Below are positions 40,130 through 44,214 of a stretch of DNA of 64,000 nt, piece after piece. Origin of the DNA: Candidatus Peribacteria bacterium (lineage in GTDB: Bacteria; Patescibacteriota; Gracilibacteria; Peribacterales; Peribacteraceae); the NCBI GenBank assembly GCA_023038255.1, contig CP082927.1:1006146-1070145 (forward strand). Reading direction: 5' to 3'. Position 1 is the first letter of the stretch. Each line of letters begins with the position of its first letter. Made by a program: the position numbers and the translations under genes. A model generated the notes under the pieces. It did no database searches and was not told the DNA's origin. It saw only the letters and a program-made list of their open reading frames with translations.

Positions 40130-40795
40130 ATGAAGCGAATCAGCCTTTCTCTGGCAACCATCCTTTTACTGGCCGCATGCTCCACGGAGCAGACCGCACG
40201 GTACCGCCTGACATTTGACGTCACGGACGTGTCAGACCAGCAGGCATTGACCACAGCCAGCATGGACGTGATTGATCGCCGTCTGGCGCATTTGGGCGTA
40301 CAGATGACCGGAAAAGATACGCAGGTGCAGAACAATGAGACGGTGCTCGTCGTCCGGCTGCCAAACCAGGAAGCTGCCGATGCACTCACTGCCGAACTCG
40401 TGCAGCCGTTTGATCTGTCTATTATGAGTGAAACCGGTCCGAATGAGACGGTGGATCTTACCATTGAAGGCCGGGGCAACTTTACGAAAACCGATATCAC
40501 ACAGGAAGATTTCACATGGGTTGCTGCCCGCAAAGATCCGAAAAACGGTCGTGGCGAAGTGCGCCTGCAACTGACCGAAGAGGGCCGCACAAAAATCCAG
40601 GCACTCTTCAAGAAAATGCAGGGAAAAAGCATCGGTATTTTCGTCCGTGGCAGACTCGTGAGTCTGCTCACCGTCCAGTCTGATGAGGTCCCCAATGATC
40701 TGATTATCCGCGATGTTCCGAATGCCGATATTGCCACTATTTTCGCCGACGATATGAACGTCGGTTTACATGTCACCTTTACACCGGTTCCGTAA
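40130..40795 (+). CDS. SecD-like periplasmic-domain lipoprotein
   Basis: 221 residues. A lipobox (LLLAAC) is followed by a domain resembling the extracytoplasmic P1 part of SecD: ASMDVIDRRLAHLGV, VLVVRLPNQEAADAL, and a second half GEVRLQLTEEGRTKIQALFKKM with GIFVRGRLVSLLTVQ. There is no SecD membrane bundle. It ends 10 bases before the start of the SecD gene, so it is likely a dedicated extra component of the SecD complex. This arrangement is unusual. Confidence 0.8.
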   Translation: MKRISLSLATILLLAACSTEQTARYRLTFDVTDVSDQQALTTASMDVIDRRLAHLGVQMTGKDTQVQNNETVLVVRLPNQEAADALTAELVQPFDLSIMSETGPNETVDLTIEGRGNFTKTDITQEDFTWVAARKDPKNGRGEVRLQLTEEGRTKIQALFKKMQGKSIGIFVRGRLVSLLTVQSDEVPNDLIIRDVPNADIATIFADDMNVGLHVTFTPVP

Positions 40796-40805
40796 CCTTC
40801 TTTTT

Positions 40806-43241
40806 ATGGCTTCCCGTTCATCCTCCATCTGGCCGATCGTCTACGCGGCGATTGCAGTTATCGTCATCGTGATCGCACTTCCGTCTTCCTTAAAGGCAGG
40901 ATGGGCACCGTCGTTCCTCAACCCTGATTTTCACTTCGGTCTCGACCTCGCAGGAGGCACGCAGCTCGACTTCCGCATTTCCGAAAATGAAATCGAGGAT
41001 CAGGTGAAGCAGCTCGACACCCGCATTAATGAACTGCAGGCACAGGGAGGCGCCGGCAGCACCGAATTGCTCCAGCTCCAGAACGAGCGCGCAGCCATCC
41101 GTGAGCAGCAGACAAACCTTGTGGAAGCTATCCGCACCGTTCTCGAGCGCCGCATCAACGCCCTCGGTGTGAGTGAAGCAGTCATCACTCCGTCCTATGT
41201 CGGAAACGAAAAGCACCTTCTGGTGGAATGTCCGGGTGTGGTCGACGTGCAGCAGTGTATTGATACCGTCGGAAAAACCATCCAGCTCGAATTCAAAGAA
41301 GAGTTCACAGAAGCTGACGCAGCCTACGAAACAACCGTCCGTAACAACGTGACCGCAGCCGTCGCCCGCATGACAAAGAGCGGAGCCACGCTCGCAACAC
41401 TGGGGCAGGATCTTGGTTCCCAGCTCGGCATGGGCTACGAGGCATCACACGTCTACTTCCAGGATGAGCTTCCGAAGGGGCTGGAAAAAGTATGGTCCAT
41501 GACAGCCGCAAACGGCGTGCAGCGTATTGAAGGCTCTGTCAGCGTGCAGAACACTGACGCGCAGGGCGCTCTTGTGACGGATGAAGTCCCGGGCATCTTC
41601 CTTGTTGAAGTGCTCGCTCCGCGCACCATGACCGGCCGCGTGATCAACGAAGCTCCGAAGGCTTTCGGCGTCCTCGCAAAGTCCGAAGCAACCACCACAC
41701 AGCGTTTGGAACAGGATATTTCTCTCGATGACAAAGTCCCCACCCGCCTCATCTCCACCATCAAAGAGATGAAGTCCGGTGAGCTGAAAGTGGCCACCAT
41801 GGACGACGGATCTGCCCAGCTGATTTTCCTGCGCAGCTATGTTCCGGGTGCACAGCAGGTGGATGTCAGTCACATCCTCGTTGCCTACAAGGGAGCTAAC
41901 TCAGCTCCGGCAAACGTTACCCGCACAAAAGAAGAAGCACTCGCCCGCGCGCAGCAGCTGAAAGCACAGCTGACGGCAGGAGCGAACTTCGCAGATATCG
42001 CCCGTACACAGAGTGACGGTCCATCCGCACAGAACGCCGGTAACCTTGGGCCTATTACCCACGGTTCCCTGGTGCCTAGCTTTGAAAACGTTGCCTTCTC
42101 ACAGGCAGTCGGCGTCCTGAGCGATCCTGTCGAGACACCGTTTGGTTACCACATCATCCGCGTCGACAAAGCACCGTACATGCCTGCAGACAAGGCGACC
42201 TTCGATGCTCTCACGATTACCGGTGCAGACGCTGTGACCCGTGCCAACGCGATGCTCACCCGCCTCCAGAGCGGTCAGGTCCGCAGCACAGAAGATGCTA
42301 TTACACTCCGCACCCTCTTCTTCTCCCTCCGCCCGACAGGCTGGAAGGACACCGAACTCGATGGCAAGCACTTCCGCTCCGCAACAGTCACGCTTGAACC
42401 GAATACCAGCCTCCCGGTTGTGCAGATTGTCTTCAATGCAGAAGGTGCCCGCCTGTTCCAGGAACTCACCAAGGCAAACATCGGCAAGCGCATCGCGATC
42501 TTTGTGGGTGGCGAACTCGTCTCCGCTCCGACCGTGCAGACAGAAATCACCGGAGGCAGCGCGGTCATTACCGGTAGCCAGAACTACGAAGAGGCACGCA
42601 TCCTCGCTCAGGACCTGAACACCGGAGCAATCCCCGCCCCAATCCACCTCAATGGTCAGCAGACAGTGGAAGCAACACTTGGCGCACAGGCACTCAGTAT
42701 GTCTGTCTTCGCAGGCTTCATCGGCATGATTATCGTCATGCTCTACATGCTCTTCATGTACCGCTTCCTCGGTGTCCTCGCGAACCTTGCGCTCCTTATT
42801 TACGCCGTCATCTTCATTGCCATCCTGAAGCTCCCGCTCTTCCTTTTTTCCGACAGCTACATCGTCCTCACGCTCGCCGGTGCCGCCGGTATGATCCTGA
42901 GTATCGGTATGGCGGTGGACTGTAACGTGCTCGTGTTCGAGCGTGTGAAGGAAGAACTCAAGCGCGGCAAAATGCTCAAGACCGCCATTGAGGTCGGCTT
43001 CGACCGCGCCTGGCCGTCAATCCGCGACAGTAACATCACGACCATCATCACCTGCGTCCTGCTCTTCATGGTAGGAACCTCCCTCGTCCGCGGCTTTGCC
43101 GTCACGCTCGGTCTGGGTGTCATCATCTCCATGTTCACCGGCATGATCATCACCCGCTGGATGGCACGCAAGGTCGCCGTCTCTCCCCTCGCCAATAACA
43201 GGAAGCTCTTCCCGGGTGCGAAGACGGAGCTGCAGCAATAA
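40806..43241 (+). CDS. secD: SecD protein-export subunit with an inserted parvulin PPIase domain
   Basis: SecD helps the Sec translocon by pulling exported proteins out with proton-motive force. 811 residues against about 400-620 usually. One N-terminal helix (10-27), DFHFGLDLAGGTQLDF (41-56), P1-type segments (about 105-165 and 525-615), and the C-terminal membrane bundle (about 628-790) with AGMILSIGMAVDCNVLVFER are all normal. Between the P1 halves lies an extra 180 residues or more that includes a complete parvulin rotamase domain at about 349-457 (VSHILVAY, AQQLKAQLTAGANFADIA, GGNLGPI-type loop, ETPFGYHIIRVD). ATG 40806 is chosen on the conserved start. No secF follows; a terminator does. 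Confidence 0.94.
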   Translation: MASRSSSIWPIVYAAIAVIVIVIALPSSLKAGWAPSFLNPDFHFGLDLAGGTQLDFRISENEIEDQVKQLDTRINELQAQGGAGSTELLQLQNERAAIREQQTNLVEAIRTVLERRINALGVSEAVITPSYVGNEKHLLVECPGVVDVQQCIDTVGKTIQLEFKEEFTEADAAYETTVRNNVTAAVARMTKSGATLATLGQDLGSQLGMGYEASHVYFQDELPKGLEKVWSMTAANGVQRIEGSVSVQNTDAQGALVTDEVPGIFLVEVLAPRTMTGRVINEAPKAFGVLAKSEATTTQRLEQDISLDDKVPTRLISTIKEMKSGELKVATMDDGSAQLIFLRSYVPGAQQVDVSHILVAYKGANSAPANVTRTKEEALARAQQLKAQLTAGANFADIARTQSDGPSAQNAGNLGPITHGSLVPSFENVAFSQAVGVLSDPVETPFGYHIIRVDKAPYMPADKATFDALTITGADAVTRANAMLTRLQSGQVRSTEDAITLRTLFFSLRPTGWKDTELDGKHFRSATVTLEPNTSLPVVQIVFNAEGARLFQELTKANIGKRIAIFVGGELVSAPTVQTEITGGSAVITGSQNYEEARILAQDLNTGAIPAPIHLNGQQTVEATLGAQALSMSVFAGFIGMIIVMLYMLFMYRFLGVLANLALLIYAVIFIAILKLPLFLFSDSYIVLTLAGAAGMILSIGMAVDCNVLVFERVKEELKRGKMLKTAIEVGFDRAWPSIRDSNITTIITCVLLFMVGTSLVRGFAVTLGLGVIISMFTGMIITRWMARKVAVSPLANNRKLFPGAKTELQQ

Positions 43242-43293: not shown

Positions 43294-44061
43294 TTACTGT
43301 CCTGCTCCGACCATCTGCACATGTGTGCTCAGAACCTCTGCCGCCTTGTCTGTGTATCCTGTTTTTTCTGCCTGGACAATAAGTTCATCCATCGTGAGTG
43401 ACCCGTCCTTCAGCCCCGCTTCCCATACATGTCCCTGCAGCGTCGAGAGATCCCCTGTCACATTAAGCGTGGTCGTGAGCGCCTCCGCATGGTCCGCATG
43501 AATCTCTTCCGCCATATCATGTGCAGTCTCATAAAGTTCAGGCTGGTCGTCTCTGCGCCCGAAGACATCGGCCGTTGCCATCTCTGCACCGCCTTCGTAG
43601 AAGAGAGTCGGGTCAGTGATGGCCTCCTGCGATGCGGTGTAGAAAATGGTTTCCTGTCCGCCGGTCTTCAGCTCTTTCTGATCGTTATGCTCCTTCTCAT
43701 GAATGACCGTCTGCTCCAGCTCCTGCGTCGTATCGTAGGCGTACAGCAGCTCAGCGTTCAGCGTAATGTCGCTATCGGTTCCGCCCACATAGGTGAAGCC
43801 ATTGAGTCCGGGTTCGAGTGTGGCATCGACCTGAATATTCATGGACCCATCCACCGCATGTTCCACGTTATCCGCATTTTTCTGCATTATCTCTCCGGCA
43901 TCCGCCAGAGCGCCTCCTGCCTGCAGAAGAGTGGAAGACATGGTGCGGACATTCGATATGAAATCATCCACCGTCTGCGCGTCCGTTGTTGCAATGGTTT
44001 CTTGGAAATTCTGAGCCAGAAGCTCTGCATCCAATGCCGGTGATGTTGTAGGGGTTTCCAT
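43294..44061 (-). CDS. Putative HExxH metallopeptidase-like protein
   Basis: 255 residues, acidic, no signal peptide seen. H111-E-K-E-H115 (TVIHEKEHND) is a candidate zinc helix, and a glutamate in FYEGGAEMATAD could be the third ligand. The N-terminal 60 residues are helical (TVDDFISNVRTMSSTLLQ). Family not recognised, so protease activity is a guess from the motif. ATG 44061 is preferred over an in-frame TTG at 44070. Its leader is unrelated to a Shine-Dalgarno sequence. Confidence 0.65.
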   Translation of the reverse strand: METPTTSPALDAELLAQNFQETIATTDAQTVDDFISNVRTMSSTLLQAGGALADAGEIMQKNADNVEHAVDGSMNIQVDATLEPGLNGFTYVGGTDSDITLNAELLYAYDTTQELEQTVIHEKEHNDQKELKTGGQETIFYTASQEAITDPTLFYEGGAEMATADVFGRRDDQPELYETAHDMAEEIHADHAEALTTTLNVTGDLSTLQGHVWEAGLKDGSLTMDELIVQAEKTGYTDKAAEVLSTHVQMVGAGQ

Positions 44062-44214
44062 ATGCGCCAATCATCCCCCCGCTTTTGCATACAACAAGCA
44101 TCGGGGCAGACCAAGCGACCATGTTGCACATAAATCGCTTATCACTGCGGAAAAGACGATCATGGCAAAGCGACCGTTTTCAGCGTACCTTAACCTAAAC
44201 CTTTACTCTGACCT

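Follow-up and report, generated by a model that had tools for sequence, protein, structure and literature searches.

In SecDF, for which the motor function is established, movement of the P1 domain by SecD and SecF draws on the proton motive force and pulls the emerging chain; P1 binds the polypeptide and moves with the proton flow. How chains that leave SecYEG reach their folding helpers is still open in the field, and contacts of SurA and PpiD with the P1 domain of SecDF are believed to be transient. SurA, a separate, soluble parvulin chaperone of the periplasm with its own N/C chaperone domain and more than one parvulin-like unit (one of them active), binds the holotranslocon, and AlphaFold2 (AF2) places its P1 and P2 parvulin domains on the P1 head of SecDF (PMC9987972). 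PpiD, a separate single-TM protein with a parvulin domain, works at SecYEG as PpiD-YfgM, contacts the periplasmic domain of SecD and acts together with SecDF at a late stage of translocation; whether its parvulin domain matters functionally has been questioned (PMC9643414). The Peribacteria SecD encoded in our window (the whole stretch of 64,000 nucleotides that was analysed) also has more than one parvulin-like unit, but here these are covalently built into the translocase subunit. Its parvulin thus stands outside the stand-alone class of PrsA, SurA and PpiD (separate lipoproteins, soluble or single-TM proteins), as the domain lies within SecD. We found no report of SecD fusions with parvulin, PpiC or rotamase domains in the literature searched. 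Both domains are already known and the architecture would show automatically in Pfam; new here are the modular nature of the insert, its apparently permuted single-unit versions, and a detached SecD-P1-like lipoprotein encoded upstream.

The secD gene (40806..43241, + strand) starts with an ATG at 40806 and is one uninterrupted open frame of 811 residues that scores 332.6 bits against the NCBIfam secD model TIGR01129 (cut-off 244.4). A first transmembrane helix (residues 8-24, 40827..40877, AF2 model) is followed by Gly50-Gly51 of a candidate Sec_GG motif, a pair that is nearly invariant in the Peribacteria alignment although the profile itself (PF07549) stays under its cut-off (15.9 vs 20.3 bits). 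Five further Pfam matches each exceed their curated cut-offs: SecD_1st, the N-terminal part of P1 (PF21760, residues 107-165, 41124..41300, E 1.2e-12), Rotamase_3 (PF13616, residues 350-454, E 4.3e-26, 92 bits), Rotamase (PF00639, residues 356-454, E 1.6e-23, 84 bits), the SecDF P1 head (PF22599, residues 514-611, 42345..42638, E 2.1e-26) and SecD_SecF_C (PF02355, residues 616-784, E 1.4e-9, 38 bits vs a cut-off of 20.5), the latter covering most of the C-terminal membrane bundle (residues 616-792, 42651..43181, with helices in the AF2 model). The complete parvulin domain (residues 349-455, 41850..42170) sits between the first segment of P1 and the P1 head. A sequence-only reading of this locus had proposed just this, i.e. 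a full parvulin at about residues 349-457, lodged between the two parts of P1 of an otherwise intact, single-frame SecD, and all three elements are borne out by the profiles; a failure of the segment to match parvulin models, which that reading had named as grounds for abandoning it, did not occur. Compared with other SecD and SecDF proteins (TIGR01129; Thermus SecDF 3AQP, 5XAN, 5YHF), the first P1 segment, the P1 head, the membrane bundle and the conserved transmembrane Asp/Asn motif are shared, whereas the Peribacteria protein has about 345 extra residues at the junction of P1 base and head, including the full parvulin.

An artificial origin of this architecture, by an assembly join or a mis-called fusion of secD and prsA, had been raised as a possible objection and has a negligible probability. 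No supporting point was found, the genome is a single 1.24 Mb contig (99% complete), the frame is continuous and the base composition even along the gene. The gene is not an assembly join, since full-length orthologs with 50-69% identity exist in dozens of independent assemblies. Of 16 genomes sampled in the same family, 15 encode an ortholog of full length (50-61% identity among the others); the remaining genome gave no SecD match. A further 31 Peribacteria loci with an ortholog came from a GTDB-based collection, some of them from the same species as the family set, and 38 Peribacteria sequences align over their whole length. One Peribacteria secD locus lies in a record titled Kiritimatiellales bacterium (L052), whose contig looks mis-binned.

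The AF2 model, built with 63 sequences, has a mean pLDDT of 89.9 and mostly 93-98 over the insert, and its pTM is 0.57; thus the domains are well modelled, while their mutual placement, including the orientation of the parvulin towards P1, is unreliable. Foldseek matched the model to SecDF and Pin1. In VIA-align superpositions, residues 349-455 of the model fit residues 52-163 of human Pin1 with Z 19.4 and an rmsd of 1.2 A over 107 residues (34% identity), and the whole SecD model fits SecDF with Z 20.8 over 393 residues spanning 9-805, at an rmsd of 13 A as expected for a multi-domain chain. The domain sequence also matches structures of PrsA, PpiC, SurA and Pin1. With Pin1, PpiC and PrsA it shares the complete parvulin fold and the catalytic His pair: superposing the AF2 model on Pin1 equates His356 (41871..41873) with His59, His449 (42150..42152) with His157, Thr444 with Thr152, Phe426 with Phe134 and Leu414 with Leu122, and His356, Ser403, Phe426 and His449 are invariant in the unselected alignment of 38 Peribacteria sequences. 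It differs from these proteins by its location inside a membrane translocase subunit and by a Gly (Gly405, 42018..42020) at the position of Pin1 Cys113 and Par14 Asp74, and from Pin1 also by the phosphate-binding Arg pair, which is not seen in the 59-71 loop.

Active parvulins typically have Cys, Asp or Glu at the Pin1 113 position, and family membership is possible without it. Gly405 thus departs from the catalytically typical pattern; 34 of 39 Peribacteria have Gly here, with Asp404 as a neighbour. The position is Asp, Glu or Cys in 36/36 complete domains outside Peribacteria, in a comparison set selected on His motifs; how far the histidines are conserved is therefore to be read from the 38-sequence alignment. 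One may thus regard the insert as a non-enzymatic chaperone or docking scaffold that binds unfolded chains or partners on the P1 arm and has kept the parvulin fold for binding only. Gly405 itself speaks for such a role, as do the degenerate units of the insert (residues 172-279 and 283-346), which lack active-site residues, and the doubts about the parvulin domain of PpiD (PMC9643414). Likewise, three mutually close SecDF relatives (L074-L076) have lost both histidines (NGYN and VSRI/VSNI) and kept the insert, showing that catalysis is not always required of it. However, almost every sequence retains His356, Phe426, Thr444 and His449, beyond what binding would seem to demand, and among SecDs with a single parvulin-like unit both histidines (in the terminal strand and the FGYH motif) are present in 9/11 and both absent in 2/11. 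We therefore rate a purely binding role as rather unlikely, and judging from these residues, prolyl isomerase activity is likely, albeit not assured.

Across the lineages compared, the inserts come in three kinds with one, two or about three parvulin-like units. Single-unit inserts (122-150 aa) start at about position 19-28 of the parvulin model and end in a RHIL-type strand that corresponds to the first strand of a normal parvulin. When this strand was moved to the front, the parvulin score rose by 2-11 bits in 9/9 single-unit inserts (the permuted-looking ones being L020, L021, L025, L028, L030, L093, L094, L103 and L104) and in 7/9 was higher than in any of 30 shuffled controls. The AF2 model of L030, with an insert pLDDT of about 90, runs through helices, a strand, a helix and two strands; re-aligning the single-unit model by structure gave SecDF and RND-type proteins only, and the absence of parvulins from that list is no evidence either way on permutation. 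By their sequences and the modelled order of elements, the single-unit inserts point to circularly permuted parvulins. Two-unit inserts (226-256 aa) consist of a first body, a complete parvulin and then the terminal strand; in other classes the first body mostly still scores 27-52 bits as a parvulin, and its His is usually lost, as is that of the terminal strand.

The insert of Peribacteria (about 344-345 residues) is made up of two degenerate units, then the complete parvulin, then a strand-helix-strand that closes it. Body 1 (residues 172-279, 41319..41642) is modelled as helices followed by strands, mostly at pLDDT >90, and the second, partial unit (residues 283-346, 41652..41843) as helix-strand-helix-strand-strand, with weaker profile support. 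The closing element (residues 463-507, 42192..42326) ends in a strand that is the counterpart of the terminal strand of other inserts, and residues of about 456-515 alone gave no Pfam match. Degenerate parvulin copies had been suspected at residues 160-345. This stretch alone has no significant Pfam match, and comparing the profile of residues 160-350 directly with that of the complete parvulin gave no significant match; the copies are supported only through intermediate SecDs: the complete parvulin matches the first body of two-unit inserts (E 8e-20) and the first body in its own class (E 8e-8), and the latter leads to Peribacteria (E 1e-9), all of these being pairwise E-values without database correction.

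Directly upstream of secD lies a gene (40130..40795, + strand) for a lipoprotein (lipobox LLAAC) that resembles a detached P1 of SecD, lacking both the parvulin and the membrane bundle. Its similarity to SecD P1 is weak but consistent, with both TIGR01129 (22 bits) and the P1 head (26 bits) under their cut-offs; it is also similar to insert-less SecDs. Where a Peribacteria locus extends upstream of secD, such a gene almost always lies directly before it. Lipoproteins that combine P1 and parvulin without a membrane bundle are encoded in L079 (2232-3668, + strand) and L081, from another family of the class (open frames of 479 and 491 aa). Given the upstream lipoprotein and these P1-parvulin lipoproteins, P1 seems to serve as a module both in the motor and apart from it. 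We tentatively envisage, at somewhat less than even confidence, that the translocon motor of Patescibacteria took in the chaperone of its exit side as a modular device that goes on evolving: a parvulin in circularly permuted form, with its first strand and catalytic His at the end, would have been planted in the P1 domain of SecD, a second, normal parvulin would have been nested inside it in many lineages while the first decayed, and P1 plus parvulin would also occur as a free lipoprotein, with SecD both pulling and folding.

The distribution was surveyed by intersecting SecD matches with rotamase matches in 380 Patescibacteria genomes and then reading the loci; outside Patescibacteria it covered plasmid-borne SecDs. 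As the sequence-only reading had suggested looking for, the insert recurs in dozens of independent genomes: at least 66/380 genomes from at least 28 families carry a parvulin-bearing SecD or SecDF, namely at least 35/37 genomes of the same class (10 families) and, in other classes, at least 31 genomes from 18 families, among which L106 and L107 have decayed sites. Many members of the class outside Peribacteria have single-chain SecD-parvulin-SecF proteins of about 1010-1112 aa (L065-L076, L078, L080, L082), e.g. L065 with SecD_1st, parvulin, P1 head and two SecD_SecF_C stretches. A Vibrio SecD was considered because a tblastn match reached the parvulin region, and was rejected as it had no rotamase match. 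Parvulin-free SecDs are mostly 420-490 aa long and usually have a linker of 3-66 aa at the insert site; L114 has a 121-aa acidic low-complexity insert there, without a parvulin. Such variability might suggest that the P1 base/head junction simply tolerates insertions and that the parvulin is a lineage-specific decoration without strong function. This is very improbable, given that the insert is repeatedly a parvulin kept in at least 28 families with conserved active-site residues. In a SecD core tree of 83 rows, built without the insert, presence and absence of the parvulin need about five changes, which also speaks against decoration and does not distinguish gain from loss as the tree is unrooted.

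In the class of our genome, the listed parvulin matches outside SecD were all P1-parvulin lipoproteins of one family (f7), and thus the built-in parvulin may have replaced PrsA/SurA there. Such a replacement is not general, since most fusion-bearing genomes of other classes also retain a stand-alone parvulin.

On balance, we consider it reasonably probable that the SecD of the Peribacteria Sec translocon carries its own foldase or chaperone at the translocon exit. The parvulin module of about 345 residues, inserted at the junction of P1 base and P1 head on the membrane's outer side, would set a peptide-binding prolyl isomerase or chaperone on the moving P1 arm. We infer that it may bind the unfolded chain, preventing back-sliding or aggregation, and isomerise prolyl bonds while the chain still exits SecYEG, in a manner coupled to the P1 cycle. 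The chaperone that is recruited elsewhere as SurA, PpiD or PrsA would here be a covalent part of the motor. That clients are folded while emerging from the translocon is plausible and fits with SurA and PpiD working at SecDF. A covalent P1-parvulin fusion in so many families provides independent evolutionary evidence for parvulin chaperones working at the P1 arm. It also offers one polypeptide on which to study pulling and folding side by side, and an example of an extracytoplasmic folding solution in tiny, uncultured bacteria with reduced genomes.

The sequence-only reading had further remarked that no secF follows secD. This is true locally, but secF is present elsewhere in the genome, about 88 kb upstream (G000:C1:957511-958095). 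A trigger factor gene lies directly after secF (L128, G000:C1 about 957200-959500). The SecD parvulin is the sole parvulin match in this one-contig, 99% complete genome, a point in favour of a built-in foldase or chaperone; the two cyclophilins that the genome also encodes count against it. After secD, on the minus strand, there is an open frame of 258 aa (43294-44070) that is patchily conserved in Peribacteria (L040, L053, L058).
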